Shown in pieces: positions 33,508 to 51,515 of a stretch of 64,000 nucleotides of DNA (positions within the stretch are counted from its first letter, which is position 1; every line of letters begins with the position of its first letter). The stretch is taken from the NCBI RefSeq assembly GCF_011761265.1, contig NZ_JAAOZB010000001.1, forward strand, positions 124,001-188,000, in the 5' to 3' direction. The notes under the pieces are model-generated. The model was not told the origin of the DNA. It saw only the letters and a program-made list of their open reading frames with translations, and did no database searches. The stretch comes from Microbacterium halimionae. GTDB taxonomy: Bacteria > Actinomycetota > Actinomycetes > Actinomycetales > Microbacteriaceae. The position numbers and the translations under genes were made by a program.

Positions 33508-35154
33508 ATGAGCCGCGCGGGACAGCTAGCTGAAGCATCCGATCTGATCGACATTGATGAACTCATTGCCGCCTACTACGACCTAAAGCCCGACGCCGGA
33601 GTTCCGGCGCAACGCGTGGCATTCGGCACGAGCGGTCATCGGGGGTCGAGTCTTTCGACAAGTTTCAATGAAGACCACATTCTCGCAACCACCCAGGCGA
33701 TCGTTGACTATCGCACCGCGGCGGGAATTGCTGGCCCCCTCTTTTTGGGCCGCGACACGCACGGGTTGTCGCTTCCGGCCGAGCGAAGCGCCGTCGAAGT
33801 TCTCGTCGCCAACGGAATCGATGTGCGGGTCGACTCGCGCGATTCGTGGGTGCCGACGCCCGCACTGAGCCACGCCATCTTGACGTACAACAAGGACCGC
33901 GAAGCGGCAGATCCCGGTCGCGCTGACGGCATCGTGGTGACGCCGTCGCACAACCCGCCGCGCGATGGTGGCTTCAAGTACAACCCGCCGCACGGTGGCC
34001 CAGCCGACACTGACGCGACGTCATGGATCGCTGACCGCGCCAATGAGCTCATTGCTTCGGGCCTCGAGGGCGTCAAGCGCACCCGCTTCGCCGACCTCGA
34101 CGCCGACGCACTCGGCAGCTACGACTTTCGCGGCGTCTACGTCGCAGACCTCGAGAACATCATCGACATCGAGGCAATCAAGAAGGCCGGCGTGCGGATC
34201 GGAGCCGACCCGCTGGGCGGCGCATCCGTCGAGTACTGGGCGCTCATCGCCGACGTCTACGGCATCGACCTCACCGTCGTGAATCCCGATGTTGACCCCA
34301 CGTGGCGCTTCATGACGCTCGACTGGGACGAGAAGATCCGCATGGACCCGTCGTCGCCGTCGGCGATGGCGTCACTCGTTGCTCGCCGCAACGAATACGA
34401 CATCCTCACGGGCAACGACGCTGACGCCGATCGCCACGGCATCGTTACCCCCGATGCCGGGCTCATGAACCCCAATCACTTCTTAGCGGTCGCGATCGAC
34501 TACCTTTTCAGCCACCGCGAGAGCTGGCCAGCGGACGCCGCCATCGGCAAGACGCTTGTCTCATCGATGATCATCGACCGCGTCGCCGAGTCACTCGGCA
34601 AGACGCTGCTCGAAGTGCCGGTTGGCTTCAAATGGTTCGTGCCAGGTCTCCTCGACGGTTCCGTCGCGTTCGGCGGCGAAGAGTCGGCCGGTGCCTCATT
34701 CCTTCGCTTCGACGGCTCCGTCTGGACGACAGACAAAGACGGCATCCTGCTGTGCCTGCTCGCGGCGGAGATTTTGGCCGTGACCGAGAAAACGCCCTCT
34801 GAGCGGTACGCCGAGCTTGAGGCTGAGTTCGGTTCATCTGTCTATCAGCGCGTCGATGCTCCCGCGTCGCCGGCGCAAAAGGCGGCGCTTGCAAAGCTCT
34901 CCCCCGACGCCGTGACTACAACAACACTCGCGGGTGAAGAAATCACAGCGAAACTCTCACACGCGCCAGGTAACGGTGCGGCCATCGGAGGGCTGAAGGT
35001 GCAGACGGCGCACGCGTGGTTCGCTGCCCGCCCCTCAGGCACCGAGGACGTCTACAAGCTCTACGCCGAATCACTTCGCGGCGAAGAGCACCTGCGCGAG
35101 GTACAAGAAGAAGCCCGCGCTGTCGTCACCGAAGCACTCGGCGACGTGAGCTAA
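33508..35154 (+). CDS. pgm: Phosphoglucomutase (alpha-D-glucose 1-phosphate/6-phosphate)
   Basis: The 548-residue protein shows FGTSGHRGSS, the catalytic serine loop TPSHNPPRDGGFKYNPPHGG, the metal loop NDADADRHG, the sugar loop GGEESAGASFLR and the phosphate loop ARPSGTEDVYKLYAES. ATG 33508 directly follows TAAGGACC; the frame opens earlier but without support. It interconverts glucose 1- and 6-phosphate, the exit step for glucose 1-phosphate made by galT from the neighbouring Leloir genes. Its last 29 bases overlap the convergent GH43 gene. Confidence 0.95.
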   Translation: MSRAGQLAEASDLIDIDELIAAYYDLKPDAGVPAQRVAFGTSGHRGSSLSTSFNEDHILATTQAIVDYRTAAGIAGPLFLGRDTHGLSLPAERSAVEVLVANGIDVRVDSRDSWVPTPALSHAILTYNKDREAADPGRADGIVVTPSHNPPRDGGFKYNPPHGGPADTDATSWIADRANELIASGLEGVKRTRFADLDADALGSYDFRGVYVADLENIIDIEAIKKAGVRIGADPLGGASVEYWALIADVYGIDLTVVNPDVDPTWRFMTLDWDEKIRMDPSSPSAMASLVARRNEYDILTGNDADADRHGIVTPDAGLMNPNHFLAVAIDYLFSHRESWPADAAIGKTLVSSMIIDRVAESLGKTLLEVPVGFKWFVPGLLDGSVAFGGEESAGASFLRFDGSVWTTDKDGILLCLLAAEILAVTEKTPSERYAELEAEFGSSVYQRVDAPASPAQKAALAKLSPDAVTTTTLAGEEITAKLSHAPGNGAAIGGLKVQTAHAWFAARPSGTEDVYKLYAESLRGEEHLREVQEEARAVVTEALGDVS

Positions 35155-38100
35155 GCGAGAATCCAACACCGGCGACCAAAACGATGGCCGCCAACAGCGC
35201 AATGAAGCGAGGCGTTGCCGCGGTGCTCCCGGTAACGGCCAGCTCGCGGACCGATACGACCTGGACTGGTATCGAGACTGTCACGTTCGACTCCGCACCG
35301 ATCAGAACGATGTGGTGGTCGCCGCGCACAGCGTCGGCCGGGATCGTGATACGCGTCGAAACAGCGCCAGACGAATCCGCGACGACGGCTGCCAGGAGTA
35401 CGGGCGTCGAGTAGAGCCACACGTCGACCCGCTCACCGGGGCGGAACCCAGTCGCGCTCACGTCGATCTGCACGCCCGGTGCGGTTCGCTCAACCGATAC
35501 AGAGCCGGTTGCATCTGGACTCGTTGCGGGAAGCGGTGGAGCTGTCGGATCTGAACCACCCGCCGCCGGCGCAGCAGGGGTCGCACTCGCAGTCGGCTCA
35601 GGTGTTGTGGTTGGCTCCGCGGTCGACTCAGGTGTTGCAGTCGGTGTTGGCTCAGGAGACTCTCCCGCGTCACCGTAGATCTGAACCTCCACAATGCCGG
35701 CGGCCCAGGCAGCCTCGTTTCCGTTGTGGTCGTTGATCACGCGGTTCACGTCCACTCGCACAAACCGGTATGAGCCTTCTAGCGCGTCGCTGGTGAAACC
35801 CACCTGACGGTTCGACGTGCGATCGGCGATGGTTGTCCAGTTCTCGCCATCGGTACTGCCCGAAAGCACGTACCCGCTGTAGCTCTCCGAGCCGTTGTGG
35901 CTGCGCCAGCTGATGTCGGCGCGACTCACGTCGTACTCGCTCTGGAGATCGACCTGCCACGAGTAGGTCGAGGTCGACCCGGGAAAGAAATAGTGACTGT
36001 TGTCGTACGGACTCGTCGTGTCGTCGATACCGTCGTTTGCTGCCGCCGCTGGAGAACCCAGCGTCTCGCCGTTCTCACTCGGAGTCGAATAGCCCGCAGA
36101 GAGCGAGCCCACAGGGTCAGACGATGATGGCTTACCCTGCGAGAGCAGCCCGGACGGGGTCTGCTCGATCTGCCCTGACGGCACATCGAGCGACCATTCA
36201 TCGGTGTATTCCAGACCCAGCGTCTTCTGCACGGGATCAAGATCGAGCGGCAACCACACGTATGTCGATGTCGCGAGTGCTCCGGCTACCCAGCGGTCTC
36301 CCATATAGACAAGCGATGTACCGCCGTCACTTCGCGGCAGCGAGACAACGTATGCCGGTTGACTCTTAAATGTCGTGTTGTTGCCGAGATTATGGTTCTC
36401 CGACCACCCATTCGGGTCCGACAGATCGGATGTCGTCGCGTACTTGAGCTGGTTCGCGTACCAGCCCGACTGGCCCGACGTCACGAGGTAGTACGTGCCA
36501 TCCACTTGAGTGATAGCGGCAGCTTCGCGGCTCTCCCCCGAGAACAACGGGTACGACTTCTCGAAGTCGGCATTCTCATAGTCGGCCGACAGCGGGTATA
36601 CCCGCAGCTGCTCATGAGCTTCAGCTGAAATCAGCCACCCGTCACGGTCGCTGTCGACGTAGACGGTGAAGTCTCGAGATTGGTGACCGAGTGGGTCGTT
36701 TCCGGCGGTGCGGTAGGCAGCTTCGGCCGCAGCGAAGTCGGCGTACCGACCTTCTCCGATCGTCGCCTCGATCGCGTGCTGTTGCTCAAGGTCCCACACG
36801 TCCCCGGCACCCGGACGACCGTGATATTTCACTTCGTAGTCGCCATCGATAGTCGGGCTCGTGGCCACAACGACTTCAGACGCGGCATACGAGTCGGCAG
36901 TTTCCCAATGACCCCACAACACGAACGCGTCGGTTGTTTCGTTGAAGAGCAGCTTGGGACGCTCGACCTTGCACGATGCGGCTCCCCGCACGTTGCAATC
37001 GAGGCCAGACGCTTCGGGCACGAGTATTTGTGTGACGAACTGCCAATTGAGCAGGTCTTCTGAGCGGTAGAGATTTGTGCCGTTAAAGCTCGCTCCGTTG
37101 TGCGCCTTGTCTTCACCCACCCAGTAGTACGCGCCATCGTGCTCGAGAAATCCGCCACCGTGGGCCTGTATCGAGTTTCCTTCGGTGTCGAACCATGGTT
37201 GGCCAACCGGCACGCTCTCGTACTCACCGTCGACAGGCGCGATGGTGTAGTCCACGGTCGTGACAGCACTTGCGACACCGTCTCGGAACGCCAGAGCGCG
37301 AACGGTGGCTGAGCTATCGAGCAGAAAGGGATCCGAGTACCGCGTACCGCTCGTGCGGGTCGGCGCACTGCCGTCGAGGGTATAAAAAACCACGGCGTCA
37401 TCGGCGGCGTTGATTGACACAGTCTGAGCCGATCCGTAGACAACGGTGGCGCTCGGAGACACGACAGGAGCCTCGACCGACGCCACCGCGAGGTCGAGCT
37501 CCTGCGCTCCGCGAGCGGCCGCGAGCCACGTCACTGATGCGCCCTGCCAGCCGACATTGGAGATGCGAACAGTCACCTCGCCCGCCGCGGCCTCAGAGAG
37601 TTCGAAGGTGCCGGCGACAGCGGACTCGCGGTGCGACGGCGAAACATCACCTGAAGCGCTTCGAACGACAGCGTGCTGCTCGTTGAGCGAGTCGATAACT
37701 GTCACGTCGATCTGACGATCGCTCGCGCTCCACCACTCATATAGGCCGAGAGCGAGCGTGTACTCGCCGGCATCGGGCAAATCTAGGGTGTACGTGATCG
37801 AGTTGCCGACGCCGTTGTAGCCGTAGTGCCCGTTCACACCTTTTGTTCCCGCGTCGGCGCGTGAACCGTCTTGACCGGCGTAACCCCAACTCGAGTCGGA
37901 GGCCTTCGGCTGATCAGGCACATCGTTGCGGAGGGCATCCCCCAGAAGGTTTTTCGCGCCATCGAACGCAGCAGAGGAGGCCACGGCGGAGTCGATGAAA
38001 TAGACGGTGTCATCGGCAAGCGTTTCAACCGTGGCTGTGGCAGCTTCGTCGACCCCCGCGACGTCACCATAGATTGTGTACGACTTGTACGGCTGCGAGA

Positions 38101-38347
38101 AGGTCGTCCCGGCGAGATCCCACGACACAGCTGCCTGCGATGTGTCTCCGCTCGAGGTGGAGACGGCGACTTCAGCGGGCAACTCTGGCGAATCACCAGC
38201 GACAACTGCGAAGTTCAGCGGCTGATCGTTCAACGCTAACACTTCCGCGTGCGCGCCGGGAGCAACTGCCACGGCAGATGCACACACGAGCGCGAGCGTT
38301 ACGAGCGTTGCAGGCACTCTGGTTCGTCGGACAGATGTGGTTCTCAT
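35126..38347 (-). CDS. Secreted, wall-anchored GH43 multidomain enzyme, exo-beta-1,3-galactanase-like
   Basis: A protein of about 1073 residues. Order: signal peptide ending AHA-E (about 34), an Ig-like Big_4-type domain, a carbohydrate-binding-like sandwich (about 115-275), a chitobiase-C-like beta domain (FYTLDGSAPT), GH43 propeller (about 380-735: AHGGGFLEHDGAYYWVGEDK, DFTVYVDSDRDGWLISA, REAAAITQVDGTYYLVTSG, MGDRW), F5/8-type sandwich, Pro/Thr linker, stalk domain, LAVTG at about 1036-1040, TM helix and basic tail. The GH43 blocks match the subfamily 24 type that removes galactose or capped units from beta-1,3-galactan backbones. ATG 38347 has AAGGA upstream; ATG 38359 has none. It follows the GH30 gene by 97 bases. 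Confidence 0.87.
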   Translation of the reverse strand: MRTTSVRRTRVPATLVTLALVCASAVAVAPGAHAEVLALNDQPLNFAVVAGDSPELPAEVAVSTSSGDTSQAAVSWDLAGTTFSQPYKSYTIYGDVAGVDEAATATVETLADDTVYFIDSAVASSAAFDGAKNLLGDALRNDVPDQPKASDSSWGYAGQDGSRADAGTKGVNGHYGYNGVGNSITYTLDLPDAGEYTLALGLYEWWSASDRQIDVTVIDSLNEQHAVVRSASGDVSPSHRESAVAGTFELSEAAAGEVTVRISNVGWQGASVTWLAAARGAQELDLAVASVEAPVVSPSATVVYGSAQTVSINAADDAVVFYTLDGSAPTRTSGTRYSDPFLLDSSATVRALAFRDGVASAVTTVDYTIAPVDGEYESVPVGQPWFDTEGNSIQAHGGGFLEHDGAYYWVGEDKAHNGASFNGTNLYRSEDLLNWQFVTQILVPEASGLDCNVRGAASCKVERPKLLFNETTDAFVLWGHWETADSYAASEVVVATSPTIDGDYEVKYHGRPGAGDVWDLEQQHAIEATIGEGRYADFAAAEAAYRTAGNDPLGHQSRDFTVYVDSDRDGWLISAEAHEQLRVYPLSADYENADFEKSYPLFSGESREAAAITQVDGTYYLVTSGQSGWYANQLKYATTSDLSDPNGWSENHNLGNNTTFKSQPAYVVSLPRSDGGTSLVYMGDRWVAGALATSTYVWLPLDLDPVQKTLGLEYTDEWSLDVPSGQIEQTPSGLLSQGKPSSSDPVGSLSAGYSTPSENGETLGSPAAAANDGIDDTTSPYDNSHYFFPGSTSTYSWQVDLQSEYDVSRADISWRSHNGSESYSGYVLSGSTDGENWTTIADRTSNRQVGFTSDALEGSYRFVRVDVNRVINDHNGNEAAWAAGIVEVQIYGDAGESPEPTPTATPESTAEPTTTPEPTASATPAAPAAGGSDPTAPPLPATSPDATGSVSVERTAPGVQIDVSATGFRPGERVDVWLYSTPVLLAAVVADSSGAVSTRITIPADAVRGDHHIVLIGAESNVTVSIPVQVVSVRELAVTGSTAATPRFIALLAAIVLVAGVGFSLSSRRRVLR

Positions 38348-38408
38348 ACGTTCCTTCATTGGAGCGGGAGTGCGTTGAATTGCAGATGCTTACGCTGCGT
38401 CAGGTACG

Positions 38409-38437
38409 AGCGGGTGGGCCAAATCAGCCCACCCGCT
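38409..38437. terminator. Hairpin between the GH30 and GH43 genes
   Basis: AGCGGGTGGGC and its exact complement (11-base arms) enclose a 7-base loop, 7 bases downstream of the GH30 stop on the minus strand. There is no T run on that strand, so it may be a partial terminator or an mRNA-stabilising hairpin that tunes GH43 expression relative to GH30. Confidence 0.6.
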
Positions 38438-38444
38438 CCGTTCG

Positions 38445-41400
38445 TTACTTCGTCGAGATGCCTGCGCGTCGCCGCACGCGGACGACGGCAATGAGTCCGC
38501 CGAGCGCGAGCAGCATGATCGCGAACGGCAGAACCGGCGCGACAACACCACCCGTCACGGCGAGGTCGCCCGCAGCGTTCACTCGCAGCGGGTTCCATCC
38601 GATGACAGCGCCAGAGGCATCCGTAACGACGATGCGGTGATCACCGGCGGGCACATCAGCCGGAATACGCACCGTGACCTCACCGGATGCCGAAACCACA
38701 ACCGTGCCGAGATGGCGCGGAGTCGAGAACAACCACACATCCATGGAGTCGCCGGCATATTCTTCGCCGACGCGGATTGTCACGTTCTGTCCCGCCACGA
38801 CCTCGGTCGGCGTGCCGATCTTTCCTCGCAACGCAGCAGTGAGAGCGTCTACCGAAGGCGCTGATGCCGCACCGGTCGATGGCAGGGACGGCGACGATGG
38901 GCTCGTCGTCGGCGCGGGCGCAGACGGCTCGGGCGCGGGCGTTGTCGGCTCAGGCGTCGGCTCAGGTGCCGCCTCCACCGTGACCGGCTCTGACATTGCC
39001 GTTGCCGATGTGAACCCTGCAGCGGATGCCGTCACACCAACGCGAAGCATCGCTCCGATGTCTTCGGAAGTCGCCATGTATGCGGCACCTGTCGCGTCGG
39101 AGATGTTTTCGCCGTCGCGTGTCCACTGATACGCGAGTTCGGCATCGTCGGGGTCGACCGTCGACACCGACGCGTTGAGTGTCGAACCAACGCGCGCGTC
39201 GCCCGCAATCGACCCAACCGCAAGGTCGACCGTGCGAGTGATGCCGACTGTGTACGAACGAACTGTGCCATCGGGCGCTGTCACGTCGACGCGACCCTGA
39301 CCATCGGCATCCGCTGGCTGAACGACGCTCACGTTCGCATCGCCATCAACCGCCACAGCGCTCAGGACTGGCCATCGCGACCCGGTCGACTCGGCGGAGT
39401 ACTCCAAGCGATCAGCTGCGAAGTCGGCTACGGCAACGCCATCGAGCGAGATGCGCGCGAGATCTGCGACACCAGACTCGGATGCCTGGAGACCGAAGAT
39501 CTCCACTTCGGAGACGACCATGTGCGTTGCCGCTCGCGCCGTGAGCACTACTCGCACCTCGTCGGCCGCGACATCGCCGAGCGGAACATCGACGACCGGC
39601 GCACCGGTCTCGGGTGCAGCTACTGCAACCGAGTCGCCCTCGACCCACTCGCCGCCGTCAGTTCGGTGGTCGATTCGAAGCGTCTGTGCCCAGGTCGTTC
39701 CACCATCTCGGTAGAAGTGCACCTTCAGGTGACGCACCTGCGTCGTCTGCGCCAGCGTGTAGCTGAGCGTGTCTCGTGCGTTCTTCGTGCCCGATCGCCA
39801 GTTCGACCAGCCTTTGTCGGTGGTGAGCCCGTTCTTCGTGCGGTCGACACTGTACGAAGAGCTTTCAGTGAAGGTGGCCGATGCCGTGCTCGAAGGCGCA
39901 ACGTTCGCTTCTTCAGCGGTCGTGACGATCACAGTGAGCGTTGCAGGCAGCCGAGGTGCTGTCGGATCGTTCGACTCTGCTGAACCCGGAACTGTCACAG
40001 TCCCCGTTTCGGCGAAGTTCGTATCGGCGAGACCTGTCCAGTCCCACTCGACATTCGCTTCGAACGTGGCACCGCCCGGTGTGAGCTCCGCCGGAACCGT
40101 CGTCGGGGCGCCCTGCTGCACCCGGTCGAGGGTTGCCCCAGCGTAGATCGTCAGCGACACCGGTCGCGTGCCGGTGTAAGAACCGATCTCAACTTTCGCT
40201 CGCGCCGAATCGAACGTTGCGCCGAACATGTCAACACCGTGACCTGAAATCGTGACAGTGCCAGGCGTCGACCAGTCAGCATCTTCTACATCCCATTCCA
40301 CGGCGGCAGATCGCTCAACACCGCCGCGATAGGTGAGAGTAACAGTGCCCGGAAGCTCCGGAGCCTCACCCGTGATCGTGCTGACGTTCACCGGAACAGC
40401 CGACTGCACAGCAGTTGAGGCAAGCGTCCAGCGCTGGTTTCCACCGTTGTTCGATGTCCAGGTGCCAACTCCTGCGCCATCGGCTGAGCTTTGACCGTTC
40501 ACATCGAGCACGCGTTCGGCCGTCGGGCTCAGCAACGAGTACGTCCGCCCGTCCGATGTGGAGGGGATCCACTGCATCGACTCATCCGCGGCGGCTGTTG
40601 CCTCATCGGTGCTCACAAGAGTCGTCGACGTGCCCGAAACGGCGAGGAACTGACCGTTTCCATTTTCGAGCGTGATGCGCTGGCGGTTGGTACCCGCTCC
40701 CGAAAGTGTGCGAACAGTCCACGCTTGCGCGCTGGCGGCATCCGGTGTCGTCGCTGACGACGCGATCTGAACTGCGTCGCCGTTGGCGGCGAGCGCCTTT
40801 CCACTCTGCACTCCAAGGAGCTGATATGTCTCGCCATCAGTGAAGGTCGAAACCTCGTCGGAAACGCCTGACACTCCATCGATCACGAATGTGGTGACTG
40901 ATTTCGCGGGAACACTGACCGTGGCTGTCTTGGTGTTTGCATTGATCGCGACAGGGTTTGATGCAATAAGTGCATTCGCTGTCACGTCTTCCACCGGAGA
41001 CTCCGTCGTGGTGATGGGCGTCACGGTCGCCCCGGAAGCGATGTCACCGAATCCGGAAAGATCGATCGTCACGGTGCGCGTTGCGGCCTCCGAGTTCACG
41101 TGCACGAGCGTTGCGCTCTCGCCGTCCGCGGCAACCGCGGCAGTCGTCTGCGCATCGTTCGTCGGAATCAGATGATCACCGGGGAGAATGTAGTGCGTGA
41201 AGTTTCGCACCGTGTTGTACTTCGCATTGGTCAACACTTCACACGACGGGTCGGGTTCGTTGTCAGCGATGCGACGTTCTGAGTCACCGTTGTCGTCGCA
41301 GTCGAAGTCGATGAGAACACTGCCCCAGTTGCTGTTCTCCGTTTTCTCCATGTTGTAAAGGTCTTCAACGGGCTGCCAGAACACCCATGCTTCTGGTTCG

Positions 41401-42551
41401 AGTTCTCTCAAGTCATCGACGATTCGGGATGCCATGCCAATACCGTTATCGATGTTGGTGAGGTTGAATCCGCCGGTGGTGTCCCAGTTGCCCTCGACCT
41501 CACTCATCCACAGCGGTTTGTCTGAGGCCTTCGCGATATCGCGCACAATCATGCGATCACTTGTCCCGTACGTGTGCACATTGAGCTGGTCGACACTGGC
41601 TTTCGACTCGTCGCTCCAGCCGTTCCAGTTGGTGACGAATGTCGAGGGATTGGTCTCGTCCATTGCTGAAATGCTGACGTCGGTGGACGTGTCGGGTTCA
41701 GCAAGTCGTGACGCCAGCGCTTGAATCATCTTGTTCTGCGCGCTCGGCCCGATGTGTGCGCCCTCTTGACGACTCGCACTCGTTGGCCACTGGCTTCCGT
41801 TCGGAATGCTTGTCGACCAGTAGTTGGTGTTGGGCTCGTTGAAGGGATCCAGCGTTTCGATGTCGATGCCGTAGGTCGACTCGAGGTGCTCAACAGCTGT
41901 CACGAGATATCCCGCGAAAGCGTCCATGTCTTCGGGAGCGAGCTGCTCACTCGAGCCGTTGTTAATTCCGCCCGAGGAATATCCGCTCTGGGTCAGAAAG
42001 TAGGGCGGTGAATTGCTGAATGCTTCCCACGTGATGCCCTCGTTTTTCAGCGCGTCGACCCACCACCGTTGGGTTGCGTCAGCGTCGAGGTTGTAGTGAT
42101 CGGGGTTGTCGGCGTCCCAGGCAGCGGCATACCGCTCACGGTCGCCATACGTCGATGTGATTTCTCCCTCGTCATCGCTTTCGCCGAGGTCAGGATTCCA
42201 CCAGCCCTCGACGGCGCCACCGGGTCGTAGATACGACGGCACGTCCGTCGCATTTCCGCCGCCGATGTTGTAGCGGGCGATATTGAGGTTGAGACCGTCC
42301 TCGCCGAAAACCTTCTCGAGCAGCTCCTGACGGACGTCCTCGGGGTAGCCACCGGTTGCGTTCGCGAACCACACGAGGCTCGTTCCCCACCCTTCGAATG
42401 CCTCCGCGGAGGCGTACGCGGGATTGGGCGTAATCGTCACGTCTGTGGCGGCTTCTGCGGCGATGGGGTTCGCAACCGCCGCGGCAAATCCGAGTGTTCC
42501 CGCGCTGAGCGTTCCGACGCACAGCAGGGAGAGGATTCGAGAGGACTTCAT
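38445..42551 (-). CDS. Secreted, wall-anchored GH30 multidomain enzyme, endo-beta-1,6-galactanase-like
   Basis: A protein of about 1368 residues. Order: signal peptide (cleaved near AEA-AT, about 34), GH30 barrel (about 40-480: AFEGWGTSLVWFA, LNIARYNIGGGNA, FSNSPPYF, acid/base Glu in DPFNEPNTNYW, nucleophile Glu in WMSEVEGNW, VFWQPVEDL) with its beta sandwich, ricin-type lectin (QAWTVR...QRW), two Big_4-like Ig domains, a galactose-binding-like sandwich, further Ig-like domains, Pro/Thr linker, stalk, LAVTG at about 1330-1334, TM helix and basic tail. The barrel blocks fit GH30 subfamily 5, whose known members cut beta-1,6-galactan side chains of arabinogalactan. ATG 42551 is followed by a normal signal; the earlier ATG (42596) adds a basic stretch. 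Confidence 0.87.
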   Translation of the reverse strand: MKSSRILSLLCVGTLSAGTLGFAAAVANPIAAEAATDVTITPNPAYASAEAFEGWGTSLVWFANATGGYPEDVRQELLEKVFGEDGLNLNIARYNIGGGNATDVPSYLRPGGAVEGWWNPDLGESDDEGEITSTYGDRERYAAAWDADNPDHYNLDADATQRWWVDALKNEGITWEAFSNSPPYFLTQSGYSSGGINNGSSEQLAPEDMDAFAGYLVTAVEHLESTYGIDIETLDPFNEPNTNYWSTSIPNGSQWPTSASRQEGAHIGPSAQNKMIQALASRLAEPDTSTDVSISAMDETNPSTFVTNWNGWSDESKASVDQLNVHTYGTSDRMIVRDIAKASDKPLWMSEVEGNWDTTGGFNLTNIDNGIGMASRIVDDLRELEPEAWVFWQPVEDLYNMEKTENSNWGSVLIDFDCDDNGDSERRIADNEPDPSCEVLTNAKYNTVRNFTHYILPGDHLIPTNDAQTTAAVAADGESATLVHVNSEAATRTVTIDLSGFGDIASGATVTPITTTESPVEDVTANALIASNPVAINANTKTATVSVPAKSVTTFVIDGVSGVSDEVSTFTDGETYQLLGVQSGKALAANGDAVQIASSATTPDAASAQAWTVRTLSGAGTNRQRITLENGNGQFLAVSGTSTTLVSTDEATAAADESMQWIPSTSDGRTYSLLSPTAERVLDVNGQSSADGAGVGTWTSNNGGNQRWTLASTAVQSAVPVNVSTITGEAPELPGTVTLTYRGGVERSAAVEWDVEDADWSTPGTVTISGHGVDMFGATFDSARAKVEIGSYTGTRPVSLTIYAGATLDRVQQGAPTTVPAELTPGGATFEANVEWDWTGLADTNFAETGTVTVPGSAESNDPTAPRLPATLTVIVTTAEEANVAPSSTASATFTESSSYSVDRTKNGLTTDKGWSNWRSGTKNARDTLSYTLAQTTQVRHLKVHFYRDGGTTWAQTLRIDHRTDGGEWVEGDSVAVAAPETGAPVVDVPLGDVAADEVRVVLTARAATHMVVSEVEIFGLQASESGVADLARISLDGVAVADFAADRLEYSAESTGSRWPVLSAVAVDGDANVSVVQPADADGQGRVDVTAPDGTVRSYTVGITRTVDLAVGSIAGDARVGSTLNASVSTVDPDDAELAYQWTRDGENISDATGAAYMATSEDIGAMLRVGVTASAAGFTSATAMSEPVTVEAAPEPTPEPTTPAPEPSAPAPTTSPSSPSLPSTGAASAPSVDALTAALRGKIGTPTEVVAGQNVTIRVGEEYAGDSMDVWLFSTPRHLGTVVVSASGEVTVRIPADVPAGDHRIVVTDASGAVIGWNPLRVNAAGDLAVTGGVVAPVLPFAIMLLALGGLIAVVRVRRRAGISTK

Positions 42552-42605
42552 CGTCGTTCCGTTCCGGTCGCTTCTTCGCAACCATCGATACTTCAAGCAA
42601 ACGAC

Positions 42606-42635: not shown

Positions 42636-42738
42636 TCATCATAGGATGAACACAGGATTCACCGCAATGATCAAAGCGGTGGCGCCGTGGCGAACACGGC
42701 GCGTTCGTCAACAACACACAACCTGCGAGGATGAACTC

Positions 42739-43716
42739 ATGACTTGGCTTGTGACCGGCGGCGCCGGCTATATCGGTGCACACATTGTTCGCGCACTCAC
42801 CGCGGCGGGCCTTCAACCGGTTGTGATCGACGATCTTTCCAGCGGGCATGCGTCCTTCGTGCCCGATGACGTTCCATTCGTGAACGGCTCGATTCTCGAT
42901 CTGGCGCTGATGGAAAAAACGCTGCGCGATAACAGTGTCGAGGGCGTCATCCACGTCGCGGGCTTCAAATACGCAGGCGTTTCCGTCAACCGCCCGCTCC
43001 ACACGTACGCCCAGAATGTCGAGGGCACTCGCGTCGTTCTCGAGGCAACGGCGAACGTCGGAGTGAGCAATCTGGTGTTCTCCTCGAGCGCTGCCGTCTA
43101 CGGCACCCCCGACGTCGATCTGGTGACAGAAGATCTACCGAAACGCCCGGCTTCACCGTACGGAGAATCGAAGCTGATTGGTGAATGGATGCTGCGCGAT
43201 CAGGGCATTGCGACTGCACGTACCGAGAGCCCGCTTCGCCACACGTCGCTGCGCTACTTCAACGTCGTCGGCTCGATCGATACGAGCATCTACGACTCGA
43301 GTCCTCACAACCTATTTCCCCTGGTGTTCGAAGCACTCATCGAGGGACGCACGCCCCGCATCAACGGAGACGACTACAACACCCCCGACGGCACCAACGT
43401 GCGTGACTACGTGCACGTCGCTGACATCGCCGCAGCGCACGTTGAGGCGGCAAAGCTCCTCATCTCGGAATCACCGATCGAAGCTGCCTACAACCTTGGT
43501 TCGCAAAATGGCCTGTCGGTGCGCGAAATCATGGATGCCATGGCTCGAGTGACAGGTATCGACTTCACCCCGGAGATCGCTCCTCGCCGCGCTGGAGATC
43601 CCGATCGAATCGTGGCAACCGGAGAACTCGCAGCGCGCGACCTCGACTGGAGGAACCGCCACAGCGTCGACGACATGGTGCGAAGCGGCTGGGAAGCGCG
43701 CCGGGCCGCCAACTAG
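42739..43716 (+). CDS. galE: UDP-glucose 4-epimerase
   Basis: The 325-residue extended SDR has TGGAGYIGAHIVRAL (NAD loop), GVIHVAGFKY, SSSAAVYG and YGESK (catalytic Tyr/Lys), LRYFNVVG, NVRDYVHVADIA and AYNLGSQNGLSVREI. It interconverts UDP-galactose and UDP-glucose, regenerating UDP-glucose for galT. ATG 42739 follows GAGGATGAACTC; the upstream frame to 42646 covers promoter DNA. It lies between the GH30 gene (divergent) and a LacI gene (convergent, four bases apart). Confidence 0.92.
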   Translation: MTWLVTGGAGYIGAHIVRALTAAGLQPVVIDDLSSGHASFVPDDVPFVNGSILDLALMEKTLRDNSVEGVIHVAGFKYAGVSVNRPLHTYAQNVEGTRVVLEATANVGVSNLVFSSSAAVYGTPDVDLVTEDLPKRPASPYGESKLIGEWMLRDQGIATARTESPLRHTSLRYFNVVGSIDTSIYDSSPHNLFPLVFEALIEGRTPRINGDDYNTPDGTNVRDYVHVADIAAAHVEAAKLLISESPIEAAYNLGSQNGLSVREIMDAMARVTGIDFTPEIAPRRAGDPDRIVATGELAARDLDWRNRHSVDDMVRSGWEARRAAN

Positions 43717-43720
43717 CCGG

Positions 43721-44767
43721 TCAGACGCGCGGCGGTGCCGTACTTGCGCGCACGACAAGTTCCGTCGGAACGAGAGCGCGCACGTCGCTCACACCACCTT
43801 CGATCTCTTCGATGAGGGCCGTGAGCGCTTCGATGCCGACCCGATCGAAGTGCTGACGCACCGTCGTCAAGGGTGGAAAGTGGTTCGCGGAGTCGGCCAT
43901 GTCATCGAAACCCACCACGCTCACGTCTGCGGGAATGCGCCGCCCTGCTTCGTAGATAGCGCGAGAGAGCCCCACAGCCATCTGATCGTTGGCACTGAAG
44001 ACCGCCGTCACGAGAGGGTCGGACGCGAGCGACAGACCGAGCCGATAGCCAGAGTCGCTCGTCCAGTCCCCCACTGCCATGTCGGGAACGGGGGCCCCAG
44101 CCGCCTCAAGCGTTGCTCGCCACGACTGAGCGCGGCGTTCCGCCGAATACGACCCCTTCGGACCTGAAACGTGATGCACGGTGCGGTGACCAAGTTCCAG
44201 CAGGTGCTCGGTCGCAAGTCGCGCACCCTGCGCTTGGTCGGTATCGACCACCGGATATTCGTAGTGCGCGCTTGAGTCGAGAACGACAACGGGGAGTCCG
44301 GAGGGAAGTTCGAGGTCGGCACCGTTGAGCCGGTGCGCTTCGATGAGAATGATCACGCCATCAACCGCTTGTTCTCGCAGTCGATCGAATGCGCCAGACA
44401 CGTCGGATTGCGTCGCTGAAGACAGCGGCATCAGGGTAAGCGAATACCCCGAACGTGCAGCCTCGGACGCCACTGCATCAAGGGTTCGCGTGTTGCCATA
44501 AGACGAAAGCGAGAACATGATGACGCCGATGCTCTGAAACCGTCCCGAGCGGAGCGCCCGCGCGGCACTGTTGGGCCGGTAGCCAAGCTTTTGCATCGCT
44601 TGAACCACTCGGGAGCGCGTTTCGGGGTCGACGTTGGTGCGACCATTGGCCACGCGAGACACTGTCTGGCCCGACACTCCCGCTTCGCGGGCAACGTCAG
44701 CCATTGAGGGGTCGCGACGGCGCTCGGGCCGGCCGAGACCGATCTCGACATGCTGCGCATCCGTCAT
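43721..44767 (-). CDS. LacI-family regulator of the arabinogalactan locus
   Basis: The 348-residue protein has the LacI helix-turn-helix MADVAREAGVSGQTVSRVAN (about 22-41) with the hinge YRPNSAARALRSGR, then the periplasmic-binding-like domain: IGVIMFSLSSYGNT, VDGVIILIEAH, HVSGPKGSYSAERR, AVFSANDQMAVG and FPPLTTVRQHFDRVGIEA. ATG 44767 is chosen because CGGGAGTTTCC precedes it; the ATG at 44782 is inside the operator. It is divergent from the ABC operon and its probable operators match those before GH30/galE. The ligand is probably an arabinogalactan-derived sugar (inference). Confidence 0.9.
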   Translation of the reverse strand: MTDAQHVEIGLGRPERRRDPSMADVAREAGVSGQTVSRVANGRTNVDPETRSRVVQAMQKLGYRPNSAARALRSGRFQSIGVIMFSLSSYGNTRTLDAVASEAARSGYSLTLMPLSSATQSDVSGAFDRLREQAVDGVIILIEAHRLNGADLELPSGLPVVVLDSSAHYEYPVVDTDQAQGARLATEHLLELGHRTVHHVSGPKGSYSAERRAQSWRATLEAAGAPVPDMAVGDWTSDSGYRLGLSLASDPLVTAVFSANDQMAVGLSRAIYEAGRRIPADVSVVGFDDMADSANHFPPLTTVRQHFDRVGIEALTALIEEIEGGVSDVRALVPTELVVRASTAPPRV

Positions 44768-44780
44768 GGAAACTCCCGTC

Positions 44781-44796
44781 ATGTTGACGTTGACAT
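44781..44796. promoter_or_regulatory. LacI operator O1 of the lacI/ABC region
   Basis: ATGTTGACGTTGACAT, two positions off a perfect palindrome, fits ATGTTKACGTMAACAT with one deviation. It contains the -35 box (TTGACA, 44790-44795) of the ABC operon promoter. Confidence 0.7.
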
Positions 44797-44818
44797 GCTA
44801 CCCACAATCGGGTTATGT
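44790..44818 (+). promoter_or_regulatory. Promoter of the CUT1 ABC transporter operon
   Basis: TTGACA, a 17-base spacer, and TTATGT form a good sigma-70-type promoter 56 bases upstream of the first permease ATG. The -35 box is inside operator O1 and the -10 box overlaps operator O2, so LacI bound at either would block RNA polymerase. Confidence 0.65.
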
Positions 44819-44830
44819 TGACGTAAACAT
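44815..44830. promoter_or_regulatory. LacI operator O2 of the lacI/ABC region
   Basis: ATGTTGACGTAAACAT is a 16-base palindrome with one mismatched pair, matching the sites at 42606-42635. Its centre lies 34 bases from that of O1, close to three helix turns. Confidence 0.72.
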
Positions 44831-44873
44831 CCCGCTCACGGGAAAATCACCCCAGAAAAGGCAACATCGGCCA

Positions 44874-45791
44874 ATGACGACCACAGCAGCAGCGCCACCC
44901 GTCGTGGCGCCCCCCCGGCGCAAGCGGTCGCGCATCGAACAGCGCGGCTGGCTTTTCGTCGCTCCGTTCGCAATCGTATTCGCGCTCGTCTTCCTCGCTC
45001 CCCTCATCTACTCCCTGTGGTTGAGCCTGTTCCGCGACCAGTTGGTCGGCGGAAACGCGTTCGTCGGATTCGATAACTACATCGCCGCATTTACGGATCC
45101 CAAGTTCTGGGACGGTTTCGTGCGGGTTCTCGGCTTCCTCGTCGTGCAGGTGCCGATCATGCTCTTGCTTGCTCTCGGTGCAGCCCTCGCGATCGACAGC
45201 GCACGGCTGCGCGCAAAAAGCTTCAACCGCATCATCATCTTCTTGCCGTACGCCGTTCCCGCCGTCGTCGCCGTCCTCATGTGGGGTTACATCTACGGCG
45301 ACCAGTTCGGTCTTGCCGGCAACATCAATGATTTGCTCGGATCGACTTTCCTTGCCCCGCTGTCCTCGCAGTGGATCATGCTGTCGATTGGAAACATCGT
45401 CACGTGGGAATTCGTCGGCTACAACATGCTGATTTTCTATTCCTCGCTCAAGACGATCCCCGGTGACCTCTACGAAGCGGCATCTATCGATGGCGCGGGC
45501 GACTGGCGCACGATCTTCTCGATCAAGCTTCCCGCTCTCCGCGGATCTCTCGTGATCGCGACGATCTTCTCGATTATCGGGAGCTTCCAACTCTTCAACG
45601 AGCCCAACATTCTGAAGCCGCTGGCCACAAATGTGATCTCGACGTACTTCACCCCGAACATGTACGCGTACAACCTGTCCTTCGCGGGTCAGCAGTACAA
45701 CTACGCCGCAACCGTCGCGATCATCATGGGCGTTATTACCGCGATCATCGCCTATGTCGTGCAGTTGCGCGGCTCACGACAGGAGGTGTGA
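44874..45791 (+). CDS. Sugar ABC transporter permease (CUT1, MalF-type)
   Basis: The 305-residue membrane protein has a basic N-terminus (RKRSRIEQRG), six predicted TM helices and the ABC permease coupling motif EAASIDGAGDWRTIFSIKLP (about 199-218). It pairs with the second permease to form the channel of a carbohydrate importer. ATG 44874 is used; the frame opens at 44634 but that part crosses the operators and lacI. The next gene starts two bases after its stop. Confidence 0.88.
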   Translation: MTTTAAAPPVVAPPRRKRSRIEQRGWLFVAPFAIVFALVFLAPLIYSLWLSLFRDQLVGGNAFVGFDNYIAAFTDPKFWDGFVRVLGFLVVQVPIMLLLALGAALAIDSARLRAKSFNRIIIFLPYAVPAVVAVLMWGYIYGDQFGLAGNINDLLGSTFLAPLSSQWIMLSIGNIVTWEFVGYNMLIFYSSLKTIPGDLYEAASIDGAGDWRTIFSIKLPALRGSLVIATIFSIIGSFQLFNEPNILKPLATNVISTYFTPNMYAYNLSFAGQQYNYAATVAIIMGVITAIIAYVVQLRGSRQEV

Positions 45792-45793
45792 CG

Positions 45794-46770: not shown

Positions 46771-48120
46771 ATGATTCTCATGCGAAAGAATTCGGCGCTG
46801 CGTCGCGTCGCATTCGTCGTGGCGGCAACAGCGTTGGCCGGCACGACCCTGGCTGCATGCTCGTCAGACGGCGGCAGCACCGGCGGCAGCGGCAGCGCTG
46901 GCGACCTCCAGGCAGCACTCGACGCCGGTGGCGAAATCACGTACTGGTCCTGGACCCCCTCCGGCGAGGCACAGGTTGCCGCGTTCGAAAAGGCATACCC
47001 GAACGTCACTGTAAACCTGGTCAACGCGGGAACCAACACCGACGAGTACACCAAGCTGCAGAACGCGATCAAGGCAGGCTCGGGAGCGCCCGACGTCGTA
47101 CAGATCGAGTACTACGCCTTCCCGCAGTTCGCACTCTCCGACTCACTCCTCGACCTGTCGCAGTACGGCATGGACGACCTCGAAGGCGACTACACCGCCT
47201 CGACGTGGGGTTCGGTCAACATCAACGGTGGCCTTTACGGTCTTCCCCAGGACTCCGGCCCCATGGCGATGTTCTACAACCAGTCGGTCTTCGATGAGTA
47301 CGACCTGACCGTGCCCACCACATGGGACGAGTACATCGCAACGGCTGAAGCCCTCACGACTGCTGACCCGAGCAAGCACATCACGTCCGACACAGGCGAC
47401 TCCGGCTTCGCGACCAGCATGATCTGGCAGGCGGGTGGCCACCCGTTCGACGTGCAGGACACTGACATCACGATCGCTCTCGCTGACGAGGGTTCGACGC
47501 AGTGGGCTGACATGTGGAACCAACTGCTCGAAAATGGCCTCCTCTCGAACACTCCCAGCTGGACTGACGAGTGGTACCAAGGACTCGGCGACGGATCGAT
47601 CGCGACCCTGATCACTGGTGCATGGATGCCTGGCGTTCTCGAGTCGTCGGTTGCAAACGCCACCGGTGACTGGCGCGTTGCCCCCATCCCGACCTACGAC
47701 GGCACTGCAGCCACCGCAGAAAACGGTGGCGGTGGCCAGGCAGTCACCAGCCAGAGCGAGAACCCTGCCCTCGCGGCAGCGTTCCTGAAGTGGCTGAACA
47801 ACGATCCCGAGAGCCTCTCGATCTTCGCCGAGAGCGGCGGATTCCCGTCAACGACGTCGACCCTCGAGTCGGATGACTTCCTCAACTACGAATCTGACTA
47901 CTTCGGTGGCCAGAAGATCAACGAAGTGCTCGTCGACGCTACGAAGAACGTTGTCGAAGGCTGGCAGTACCTGCCTTACCAGGTCTACGCCAACAGCATC
48001 TTCAGCGACACCGTCGGCCAGGCATACGCCAACGAAAGCGACATCAACGCTGGACTCGCTAACTGGCAAGACCAGCTCGTGCAGTATGGCAACGACCAGG
48101 GCTTCAGCGTCAACAAGTAA
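46771..48120 (+). CDS. Sugar ABC transporter substrate-binding lipoprotein (family 1)
   Basis: The 449-residue protein has a lipoprotein signal with lipobox LAAC at about residue 27-30, a Gly/Ser-rich linker, then the family 1 solute-binding domain: ITYWSWTPSGEAQVAAFEKAYPNVTVNLVN (in parts), GAPDVVQIEYYAFPQFA, YGLPQDSGPMAMFYNQSVFDEY, and ALAAAFLKWLNNDPES. It would sit on the outer face of the membrane and hand oligosaccharides, here probably arabinogalactan fragments, to the two permeases upstream. GAAGGA lies 9 bases before ATG 46771. A hairpin follows at 48129. Confidence 0.9.
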   Translation: MILMRKNSALRRVAFVVAATALAGTTLAACSSDGGSTGGSGSAGDLQAALDAGGEITYWSWTPSGEAQVAAFEKAYPNVTVNLVNAGTNTDEYTKLQNAIKAGSGAPDVVQIEYYAFPQFALSDSLLDLSQYGMDDLEGDYTASTWGSVNINGGLYGLPQDSGPMAMFYNQSVFDEYDLTVPTTWDEYIATAEALTTADPSKHITSDTGDSGFATSMIWQAGGHPFDVQDTDITIALADEGSTQWADMWNQLLENGLLSNTPSWTDEWYQGLGDGSIATLITGAWMPGVLESSVANATGDWRVAPIPTYDGTAATAENGGGGQAVTSQSENPALAAAFLKWLNNDPESLSIFAESGGFPSTTSTLESDDFLNYESDYFGGQKINEVLVDATKNVVEGWQYLPYQVYANSIFSDTVGQAYANESDINAGLANWQDQLVQYGNDQGFSVNK

Positions 48121-48207: not shown

Positions 48208-49740
48208 ATGACTTCCACGACGCGCATCACAGTGCCAGTTTCTGACGTCGGCGCCCAGATCTCCCCCCGCCTGTTCGGTACCTTCGTCGAGCACATGGGT
48301 CGCTGCGTCTACGACGGCATCTACGAGCCCGGTCACCCCGAAGCAGATGAACGTGGCTTCCGGCGCGACGTTCTCGCGCTGGTGCGCGAGCTCGGCGCAA
48401 CCGTCGTGCGCTACCCCGGCGGCAACTTCGTGTCGGGCTACCGATGGGAAGACGGCGTTGGGCCACGCGAAAATCGTCCAGTGCGACTGGACGCCGCATG
48501 GCACAGCACCGAATCGAACCAGGTGGGTCTGCACGAGTTTTCTGAGTGGGCAGCAGACGCCGGCCTCGAAGTCATGGAAGCTGTAAACCTCGGCACTCGA
48601 GGCGTCGCGGAAGCCGCTGACCTCCTCGAATACACGAACCACCCGAGCGGCACGGCGCTGAGCCAGCAGCGTATCGACAACGGCCGGGCGGAGCCCTTCG
48701 GCATCCGCCTCTGGTGCCTCGGCAACGAGATGGATGGCCCGTGGCAGATCGGCCACAAGACCGCTGACGAGTACGGCCGGCTTGCTGCCGAAACCGCCCG
48801 CATGATGCGATTCATCGATCCAGAAATCGAACTCGTAGCCGCGGGTAGCTCCAACCACGAGATGCCGACGTTCGGCGAGTGGGAGCGCACGGTACTCCGC
48901 CACACAGCGGGCCTTGTCGATCACATCTCGGTACACGCCTACTACGAAGAAGCGCCCGGCGACCCCGCCAGCTTCCTCGCGTCCGGGGTCGGCCTCAGCC
49001 GCTACCTCGACGATGTCGCCAAAATCATCGAAGACGTGCGCGCTGAGTTCAACATCGAAAAGCCCATCGGCATCAGCGTCGATGAGTGGAACGTCTGGAA
49101 CCAGACACGCTGGAACGAGGTCGACAAGCCACGCGCCTTCACGGGTGACTGGCCGGTTGCCCCACGTCTCATCGAAGATGACTACACGGTTACTGACGCT
49201 GTCGTCGTCGGGTCGCTCCTCATCACTCTGCTCAAGCACGCTGAGCACGTGTCGATGGCGAACCTTGCCCAACTTGTCAATGTCATCGCCCCGATTCGCA
49301 CCGAGCCCGGCGGGCCAGCGTGGCGACAGACCACGTTCTTCCCGTTTCAGCTGACGGCTGCCGCCGCTCGCGGAAACGTCATCGCCCTCGATGTGCAGTC
49401 CCCCCGCATCACGACAGCACGCTTTGGGGAGGTCGATGCCGTCGACGCGGTGGCAACAATCGACGGCGACGACGTCGCGCTGTTTTTCGTGCACCGCTCT
49501 CTTGATGAGGCCACAACAGTGACTGTCGCCGTACCGAGCAGGCTCGACGGCCTCGAAGCGCTCGTCATCTCGACCCCAGACGGTGCCGACCGTCACGCCG
49601 TCAACGGCGCAGACCGCCAGCCCGTGGGCCCGGCATCCTTGCCTATCGCTGTCGAGATCGATGACGCGGGCATCTCGCACCTCACACTCACTCTTCCCCC
49701 GCTTGCCTGGGCGCGTGTCACTGCACGCCTGGCCGCATAA
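48208..49740 (+). CDS. abfA: Alpha-L-arabinofuranosidase, GH51
   Basis: The 510-residue protein is a GH51 barrel plus sandwich: ISPRLFGTFVEHMGRCVYDGIYEP, VVRYPGGNFVSGYRWEDGVGP, acid/base Glu in WCLGNEMDGPWQIGHK (about 176), HAYYE and nucleophile Glu in SVDEWNVWNQ (about 294). It releases terminal alpha-L-arabinofuranose. No signal peptide, so it works on imported oligosaccharides. It follows the binding-protein gene after a hairpin and precedes GH35. AAGAAAGACC lies before ATG 48208. Confidence 0.94.
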   Translation: MTSTTRITVPVSDVGAQISPRLFGTFVEHMGRCVYDGIYEPGHPEADERGFRRDVLALVRELGATVVRYPGGNFVSGYRWEDGVGPRENRPVRLDAAWHSTESNQVGLHEFSEWAADAGLEVMEAVNLGTRGVAEAADLLEYTNHPSGTALSQQRIDNGRAEPFGIRLWCLGNEMDGPWQIGHKTADEYGRLAAETARMMRFIDPEIELVAAGSSNHEMPTFGEWERTVLRHTAGLVDHISVHAYYEEAPGDPASFLASGVGLSRYLDDVAKIIEDVRAEFNIEKPIGISVDEWNVWNQTRWNEVDKPRAFTGDWPVAPRLIEDDYTVTDAVVVGSLLITLLKHAEHVSMANLAQLVNVIAPIRTEPGGPAWRQTTFFPFQLTAAAARGNVIALDVQSPRITTARFGEVDAVDAVATIDGDDVALFFVHRSLDEATTVTVAVPSRLDGLEALVISTPDGADRHAVNGADRQPVGPASLPIAVEIDDAGISHLTLTLPPLAWARVTARLAA

Positions 49741-49769: not shown

Positions 49770-51515
49770 GTGAGTTCTTTCACCATCGGCGAAACCGATT
49801 TCCTCCTCGACGGCGCCCCTTACCAAGTCATCGCCGGCGCGCTTCACTACTTCCGTGTGCACCCGGACCAGTGGGCGGACCGCATCCACAAGGCCAAGCT
49901 CATGGGTTTGAACACGATTGAGACCTATGTTGCATGGAACGCCCACGAGCCGGTGCGCGGCCAATGGGATGCCACTGACTGGAACGATCTCGGTCGATTC
50001 CTTGACCTCGTGGCAGCTGAAGGCATGCACGCGATCGTGCGCCCTGGCCCCTATATCTGTGCGGAGTGGCACAACGGCGGGCTTCCGGTGTGGCTCACGA
50101 GCACACCCGAAATTGGCCTCCGACGCAGCGAGCCGCAATACATCGACGCGCTCTCGACCTACATTCGTCGCGTGTACGAAATCGTCGCGCCGCGCCAGAT
50201 CGACCGCGGTGGCAACGTCATCCTCGTGCAGATCGAGAACGAGTACGGCGCCTACGGCAATGACAAAGAGTATTTGCGGACCCTCACAGCGCTCACTCGC
50301 GAGTGCGACATCACGGTGCCGCTCACAACCGTCGACCAGCCCGAAGATCAGATGCTCGAAGACGGTAGCCTGCCAGAGCTCCACCTCACGGGTTCTTTCG
50401 GTTCACGCTCGGCCGAGCGCATGAAGACGCTTCGCGCACACCAACCCACGGGCCCACTCATGTGTTCGGAATTCTGGGACGGTTGGTTCGACTGGTGGGG
50501 CGGCATGCACCACACGACGGATGCCGCAGCCTCCGCCGCAGACCTCGACACGCTGCTTGCCGCGGGTGCGTCGGTGAATATCTACATGTTCCACGGTGGC
50601 ACGAACTACGGCACAACGAACGGCGCAAACGACAAGGGTCGCTACGCCCCCATCGTCACGTCGTACGACTACGACGCACCACTCGATGAGACCGGCGCAC
50701 CCACCGAGAAGTTCTTCGCGTTCCGTGACGTCATCGCGCGCTATGCGCCAGTGCCCGACGAAATACCGGCCGCTCGGGTGAGTGCACCGGCGTTCGAGGC
50801 TGCACTCTCCTCACAGCGCGCGGTCTTCACAGGCCCCGTCGCCGGAGAGCCGAGTGACACCCCGTCATCTTTCGAAGACCACAGCCACCTCGGCCCGCTC
50901 ATGCGGTACGAAATCGCCCTGCCCTCGGCCGCTTTCGACGCAAGCGGCACAGCGCTACTCGCATTCGAAGAGGTGCGCGATATGGCGTGGGTCTTCGTCG
51001 ACACGAAGTTCTGCGGTCGTCTCTCACGCGCACTTCATGAGCGCGCTCTCCGAATCCCCGTCGGCACTCGGCTTACTGTGCTCGTTGAAGACCAGGGTCG
51101 AGTGAACTACGCGAGCAGGCTCGGCGAGCCCAAAGGTCTCATTGGCGCACCTACACTCGGTGGCGTTACGCTCACCGGGTGGATGAGCGCTCCGCTCGAC
51201 GTGCCAGCCCTTGCGGCGTCCGCGGCTTCCGGGGCAACCGGTGGATTCGGGCCGGTGTCGGCATCCGGGTCGTTCGAACTCGAAGCGGCAACAGATCTGT
51301 TTCTTGACACCGACCCGTGGGGCAAGGGCTTCGCGTTTGTGAACGGGTTCTTTCTGGGCCGGTACTGGCGAAGTGGTCCGCAGCGGACGCTGTACGTCCC
51401 CGCATCCGCTCTCCGTGCTGGGTCAAACGAGATCTCCATCGTCGAACTCGAACAGCTCAGTACGCCGGTGGCTCGATTCGTTGCCGACCCTGACCTCGGC
51501 CACCTCGAGGAGTAA
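49770..51515 (+). CDS. Beta-galactosidase, GH35
   Basis: The 581-residue protein has GH35 blocks from the start: FLLDGAPYQVIAGALHYFRVHPDQWADRI (in parts), NTIETYVAWNAHEP, GPYICAEWHNGGLP, acid/base Glu in VQIENEYGAYG (about 155), nucleophile Glu in MCSEFWDGWFDWWG (about 233), MFHGGTNYG. It removes terminal beta-galactose. No signal peptide, so cytoplasmic. GTG start at 49770, 29 bases after GH51; only a weak ribosome site. The last codon touches the convergent LacI gene. Confidence 0.94.
   Translation: MSSFTIGETDFLLDGAPYQVIAGALHYFRVHPDQWADRIHKAKLMGLNTIETYVAWNAHEPVRGQWDATDWNDLGRFLDLVAAEGMHAIVRPGPYICAEWHNGGLPVWLTSTPEIGLRRSEPQYIDALSTYIRRVYEIVAPRQIDRGGNVILVQIENEYGAYGNDKEYLRTLTALTRECDITVPLTTVDQPEDQMLEDGSLPELHLTGSFGSRSAERMKTLRAHQPTGPLMCSEFWDGWFDWWGGMHHTTDAAASAADLDTLLAAGASVNIYMFHGGTNYGTTNGANDKGRYAPIVTSYDYDAPLDETGAPTEKFFAFRDVIARYAPVPDEIPAARVSAPAFEAALSSQRAVFTGPVAGEPSDTPSSFEDHSHLGPLMRYEIALPSAAFDASGTALLAFEEVRDMAWVFVDTKFCGRLSRALHERALRIPVGTRLTVLVEDQGRVNYASRLGEPKGLIGAPTLGGVTLTGWMSAPLDVPALAASAASGATGGFGPVSASGSFELEAATDLFLDTDPWGKGFAFVNGFFLGRYWRSGPQRTLYVPASALRAGSNEISIVELEQLSTPVARFVADPDLGHLEE

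Follow-up and report, generated by a model that had tools for sequence, protein, structure and literature searches.

We analysed a 64,000-nucleotide stretch of the Microbacterium halimionae genome (NCBI RefSeq assembly GCF_011761265.1, contig NZ_JAAOZB010000001.1, positions 124,001 to 188,000; hereafter the window), in which two adjacent genes encode large glycoside hydrolases, one of family GH43 and one of family GH30. Both predicted proteins end in an LAVTG pentapeptide followed by a hydrophobic segment and a basic tail, and a single sortase, of class E, was found in the genome. From these sequences we consider it very probable that both enzymes are displayed on the cell surface by the class E sortase. 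The case is one of actinobacterial plant-glycan enzymes predicted to be cell-bound, in a genome with one sortase and 17 predicted clients, and with relatives in which the same enzyme is untagged. The two proteins are laid out as follows, in window positions and including an immunoglobulin-like (Ig-like) domain ahead of each tag:

35126..38359, minus strand: GH43 protein, with signal-peptide-like start, Big_4, CHB_HEX_C_1, GH43, F5/8C, Pro/Thr linker, Ig-like domain and LAVTG
36155..37216, minus strand: GH43 catalytic region, residues about 382-735
35249..35500, minus strand: Ig-like pre-anchor domain of the GH43 protein, VWLYSTP
35129..35242, minus strand: sorting signal of the GH43 protein, LAVTG at 35228-35242, then hydrophobic segment and basic tail
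38445..42551, minus strand: GH30 protein, with signal-peptide-like start, GH30, ricin-B lectin, Big_4, F5/8C, linker, Ig-like domain and LAVTG
41022..42452, minus strand: GH30 catalytic region (about residues 34-510), in which DPFNEP and WMSE pair with 24td
38568..38846, minus strand: Ig-like pre-anchor domain of the GH30 protein, VWLFSTP
38448..38564, minus strand: sorting signal of the GH30 protein, LAVTG at 38550-38564, then hydrophobic segment and basic tail

Both genes are read from the minus strand, GH30 first, and 85 bases separate them; the GH30 gene starts with ATG at 42551, and its open frame also offers TTG at 42596. In the translations, LAVTG begins at residue 1040 of the GH43 protein (1077 amino acids, aa) and at residue 1330 of the GH30 protein (1368 aa). 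A preliminary description of this DNA had placed LAVTG, with a hydrophobic helix and then a basic tail behind it, at about residues 1036 and 1330, and this holds for both proteins: the GH30 number is identical, and the GH43 number is obtained if the later start Met5 is taken. The tails are 38 aa (GH43 protein) and 39 aa (GH30 protein) long, with best 19-residue Kyte-Doolittle means of 2.48 and 2.46, and their final parts contain 4 and 5 Lys/Arg residues, respectively, and no Asp/Glu. The N-terminal stretches of both proteins resemble signal peptides, as judged by eye.

Short motifs of this kind arise readily by chance. A DNA pattern for the bare motif, which also lets in Phe codons, matched the genome 272 times, fewer than the 316 of a reversed control pattern, and the bare motif was therefore dropped as evidence. 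Such frequencies would favor reading the two tags as a chance run of residues, a possibility that we regard as practically negligible and that is refuted by the motif in combination with its surroundings. All six frames of the window together yield 126 open frames of 150 aa or longer, and of these only two, the GH43 and GH30 proteins, have L[AP]xTG followed by a hydrophobic segment and a basic tail at the extreme C-terminus; shuffling the C-termini of the 126 frames produced this arrangement in 4 of 200,000 cases. Moreover, 12 of the 17 tagged proteins of the genome share the Ig-like domain ahead of the tag, some of them with a linker in between.

The genome (2,935,457 bases in three contigs, 99.91% complete) contains one match to the sortase family PF04203 at an E-value of 0.001. 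Its product scores 228.8 bits on the class E model NF033747 (cut-off 160), and classes D, C and F were rejected with 44.7 of 165, 34.8 of 160 and 17 of 166 bits, far below their cut-offs. The gene is located at about 559.2-560.0 kb of C1, ∼390 kb from the enzyme genes of the window, next to genes that we take from their translations to be pknB- and pabA-like, and further on are presumed rhomboid-like and peptidyl-prolyl-isomerase-like genes. The closest solved relatives of the sortase include Streptomyces coelicolor SrtE1 (5cuw), with which its His, Cys, Arg and beta3/beta4 Tyr (GHY) pair in the alignment. Class E sortases and their LAXTG signals are established (PMC5148588, PMC13251363). For SrtE1, the roles of the catalytic residues have been described, and Tyr229 has been proposed to read the alanine that follows the leucine in LAXTG (PMC5148588). 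The preliminary description had put forward LAxTG as a class E signal and made its proposal hinge on finding such an enzyme; the sole sortase of the genome is of this class, is related to SrtE1 and retains the tyrosine thought to read alanine.

The two tags are not isolated in the genome. Used as a protein query, the C-terminal 126 aa of the GH43 protein found 14 places, every one of them in a frame with the tag at its end. A profile of these 14 tails returned 19 rows, comprising the same 14, three more tagged proteins, and two weak rows (L033 and L034) that were removed because they matched only profile positions 14-37 and 15-32 and did not cover the motif. The resulting 17 tags are 12 LAVTG, 2 LATTG, 2 LAATG and 1 LPATG, so that alanine, the residue preferred there by class E enzymes, occupies the second position in 16 of 17. 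The other 15, on which a simple hydrophobicity rule for N-terminal signals was run, include proteins with metallophosphatase and 5'-nucleotidase domains, a GH43 protein of 2496 aa, a GH92 protein, an HtaA-domain protein and a cohesin-like protein. Two of the 15 had no Pfam match at 1e-5; one of these two, of 2977 aa, was scanned over its first 1600 aa. The tagged set looks like the general clients of a housekeeping sortase, and not like a system made for the two window enzymes. Two predicted clients are recorded here as observations in their own right: the HtaA-domain protein (L036; C1 433.9-436.4 kb), whose domain we assume to belong to a haem uptake family, and the small cohesin-like protein (L041; C1 1062.3-1063.1 kb).

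Alignment of the pre-anchor domain gave 12 rows of 70-97 residues with the motif [FYHRS]S[TAES]P; L011 and L013, whose matches lie well upstream of the tail, were left out of the 14 places. None of the 12 copies reached a Pfam cut-off, the best scores being 24.5 bits for Big_3_5 (cut-off 35.5) and 21.6 bits for MalQ_N (cut-off 24.1). An AlphaFold2 model of the GH30 protein copy, built from a five-row alignment, is a beta sandwich with a mean predicted local distance difference test (pLDDT) score of 88.6 and a predicted template modelling (pTM) score of 0.77. After realignment, the best structural rows are cyclodextrin glycosyltransferases and galactose oxidases with Z about 9 (3bmv: Z 8.9, root-mean-square deviation 2.3 over 80 residues). 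Foldseek's own top match is the Nir2 C-terminal domain (E 2.4e-05, TM 0.62), which we take to reflect a shared common fold of Ig-like arrangement.

A sequence model of this domain, from which the tag was excluded, matches at least 159 of 297 genomes of the order, a lower bound since at most 17 candidates per genome were scored. The best listed copy was fetched, by rank, for 60 of the 158 genomes other than our own; 56 of these copies had a stop within the fetched stretch and four did not. Downstream of the domain, 51 of the 56 closed copies end in L[APSG]xTG, a hydrophobic segment and a basic tail, with 31 Ala, 8 Pro, 8 Ser and 4 Gly at the second position; a looser motif rule, which gave 53 of 56, was replaced by this stricter one. 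Because the model is free of the tag and the signal nevertheless follows in 51 of 56 copies, we regard the pre-anchor domain as a sequence marker of predicted sortase clients across the order. It lies below all Pfam cut-offs in the 12 copies scanned and flags likely clients order-wide. Co-occurrence of domain and sortase was rejected as evidence, since it has little power when 292 of 297 genomes have a sortase; none of the five sortase-negative genomes is among the 159 matched by the domain model, and the probability of this by chance, 0.02, assumes an independence that the genomes do not have.

These data bear on whether the C-terminal segment is a mere membrane anchor, so that the proteins stay in the membrane and no sortase processing takes place. 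A hydrophobic segment and a basic tail alone would keep a protein in the membrane, and cleavage by the sortase is a predicted step. However, a mere anchor would not account for L[AP]xTG ahead of the hydrophobic segment in all 14 frames found via the upstream region, in which the hydrophobic part itself varies freely; the matching class E sortase and the signals behind 51 of 56 domain copies also argue against it, and we consider this explanation unlikely.

Sortase-dependent display has several points to contend with, which we gather here. The case for it rests on sequence, and the presence of a sortase discriminates poorly when nearly all genomes of the order have one. On the NCBIfam sorting-signal models the two whole proteins score 16-17 bits, and the cut-offs are 27-30: NF058582 (Microco_LAVTG) gives 16.4 and 16.2 bits (cut-off 27), and NF041528 (strep_LAETG) gives 17.4 bits for the GH43 protein (cut-off 30). 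Because of these scores, the proteins are not filed in either subfamily; scanned alone, 11 of the 14 tails match NF058582 at E-values up to 1 (best 4.5e-11). Behind five of the 56 closed domain copies no signal was found under the strict rule, one ending in VPPTA and one in IATTG (both with hydrophobic and basic tails) and three lacking such a tail. The remaining points come from relatives of the two enzymes.

In a survey of 299 genomes of the family, the GH30 core (threshold 1e-60) was detected in 31 and the GH43 core (1e-40) in four, our own included in both. Apart from our own there are 30 GH30 genes, of which all except that of G337 have a stop in the fetched stretch, and G337 is also the only one of these 30 genomes without a class E sortase over the cut-off. 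Among the 29 closed GH30 relatives, 16 are tagged, three carry a serine variant (LARSG or LANSG) on a tail of the same shape, and 10 lack any membrane or sorting tail and have other C-terminal modules instead. For all 10, the genome encodes a class E sortase that exceeds the cut-off. In the window's own genus, the tag is found on one of three GH30 relatives. Of the three GH43 relatives in the family, two (G422 and G096) are untagged, GH30 not being found in either genome at the threshold used. G447 is the only other surveyed family genome with both genes, and both are tagged (LPQTG and LAVTG).

A set of 18 named GH30 loci was also inspected; it overlaps with the family genomes (e.g., Agreia records), and the counts are not added together. 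Seven loci have a complete tag and eight are closed without one. In L052, LATTG is present and the record ends within the tail, and the tag is undecidable in L053 (open frame) and L066 (broken frame). A class E sortase over the cut-off was found in 16 of the 17 loci tested, and the sortase of Demequina litorisediminis is split in two frames. Predicted display is thus not conserved among relatives, and since 10 of 29 relatives are untagged although their genomes hold a class E sortase, it would not be essential to the pathway.

The untagged relatives, in both the family survey and the named loci, are what would be expected if the enzymes were mainly released and diffusible, with the tag a residual or poorly used feature. 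In the window, by contrast, the two proteins retain complete tags, alike in type to those of 15 further proteins of the genome, and we hold release to be very unlikely here. Display by the class E sortase accordingly remains our preferred prediction for this organism.

We next consider what the enzymes may do. The GH43 region is homologous to solved exo-beta-1,3-galactanases: it matches 7bys (galactan 1,3-beta-galactosidase, E 9.2e-42) and 5flw (exo-beta-1,3-galactanase, E 1.2e-17), and its top match is 3vsf (E 4.5e-62), which is deposited as 'Ricin B lectin' and which we take to be an exo-beta-1,3-galactanase. Its ERPK, EA and SQ positions, presumably catalytic, align with these relatives, and we assume that it belongs to GH43 subfamily 24. 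Filing it as GH43 rests on the solved relatives because the score for Pfam PF04616 (Glyco_hydro_43), 26.6 bits, is below the cut-off of 32.2. The GH30 region matches the endo-beta-1,6-galactanase 24td (E 1.2e-29) with the DPFNEP and SE motifs aligned, which we take to hold the catalytic Glu residues; the structure of a GH30 subfamily 5 endo-beta-1,6-galactanase is reported to be the subject of a published paper (PMC13431644). By similarity, then, the GH30 protein is a predicted endo-beta-1,6-galactanase and the GH43 protein a predicted exo-beta-1,3-galactanase. That the two activities act together is supported by a 1999-aa chain of Demequina soli (L063:6791-12790), which carries GH30, GH43 of the same type and CBM5/12 modules, and no sorting tag. 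A tblastn search at 1e-15 found no GH43 in the named GH30 loci, although L063 holds this divergent copy.

The families encoded next to the two genes suggest a locus for type II arabinogalactan:

42646..43716, plus strand: NAD-dependent epimerase family, UDP-glucose 4-epimerase like, presumably galE
43721-44782, minus strand: LacI-family regulator
44634-45791, plus strand: ATP-binding cassette (ABC) transporter permease
45788-46681, plus strand: ABC transporter permease
46771..48120, plus strand: extracellular solute-binding lipoprotein, lipobox LAAC by eye
48208..49740, plus strand: alpha-L-arabinofuranosidase (Alpha-L-AF_C), no export signal seen by eye, presumably GH51
49770..51515, plus strand: GH35 beta-galactosidase
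51516-52517, minus strand: LacI-family regulator
52600-53766, plus strand: galactose-1-phosphate uridylyltransferase (galT)
53763-54941, plus strand: galactokinase (galK)

In the mechanism that we propose, both enzymes would be exported by their signal peptides and retained in the membrane by the hydrophobic tail until the class E sortase cleaves the signal at LAVT|G, linking the threonine to a cell-wall precursor. The Ig-like domain, together with the Pro/Thr-rich linker, would probably act as a stalk. Galactose and arabino-galacto-oligosaccharides freed at the surface could then be taken up by the neighboring ABC transporter and processed inside the cell by the arabinofuranosidase, the GH35 enzyme and the galK, galT and galE steps. 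The preliminary description had further suggested local capture of the products by the lipoprotein at 46771, which is plausible given that the gene at 46771-48120 encodes a solute-binding lipoprotein and belongs to a galactose/arabinose locus.

We regard the system as a well-supported but unremarkable case of a known kind of sortase anchoring, in which the predicted members are new. As in S. coelicolor, where SrtE1 and SrtE2 act with chaplins (PMC5148588), an LAxTG signal is combined with a class E enzyme whose alanine-reading tyrosine and catalytic residues align; the predicted substrates here are, however, polysaccharide-degrading, phosphatase-type and other proteins and not chaplins, and one sortase was found. 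In Bifidobacterium bifidum, display of glycoside hydrolases by a housekeeping class E sortase has been proposed from sortase mutants (PMC8603203). Glycoside hydrolases with [L/I/V][S/A/P]XTG-type signals are common to both cases, whereas host mucin adhesion is at issue there and a plant arabinogalactan locus here. Bacillus cellulosilyticus likewise anchors polysaccharide degraders (17 of 23 anchored proteins, with wall-associated activity), but this Firmicute uses class D sortases and LPXTA signals (PMC3617157). The same pair of enzyme families is known from type II arabinogalactan degradation in Bifidobacterium longum, as Bl1,3Gal (GH43_24) and Bl1,6-Gal (GH30), the latter described as a galactobiohydrolase (PMC7889515). 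Among the open-licence papers listed on sortases in Microbacteriaceae or other actinobacteria, on LAXTG or LAVTG signals and on arabinogalactan degradation, none deals with this case, judging from titles and the beginnings of abstracts.

Taken across these actinobacteria, type II arabinogalactan degradation may come in interchangeable formats, a tentative idea to which we give somewhat less than even weight. The formats would be a wall-tied pair in M. halimionae and G447, a single untagged chain with CBM5/12 modules in D. soli, and a released GH30 protein with a different C-terminal module elsewhere. If true, the swapping of C-terminal modules on one catalytic core, with a class E sortase encoded in the genome in either case, would amount to a natural experiment on private versus shared digestion.

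Several minor observations concern the GH30 relatives. The serine-variant tails (L210 in G471, L212 in G350 and L213 in G411) keep the hydrophobic segment and the basic end. Those of G350 and G411 read LANSG, and both genomes have an extra class E-like sortase just below the cut-off (136.5 and 139.2 bits), which could represent a dedicated sorting pair that has diverged. We offer it as no more than a lead, because extra sortases also occur with ordinary tags; second sortases over the cut-off were seen in G376 (175.7 bits) and in G460 (236.8 bits), where GH30 is untagged. Two GH30 genes, L066 (D. litorisediminis) and L069 (Microbacterium oral taxon 186), have broken frames, through assembly error or decay. 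L053 is a 3.8-kb contig labelled Stenotrophomonas maltophilia with a GH30 75% identical to that of the window, and is likely to be actinobacterial contamination. Finally, an alternative C-terminal stretch recurs on untagged GH30 proteins (L055, L056, L058, L065, L067 and L202), with a YGSK-like motif followed by TR and PAG and an end near a Cys; in L202 no Pfam match at 0.01 falls within it, and the pre-anchor domain model matches L202 weakly (E 1.7e-05).

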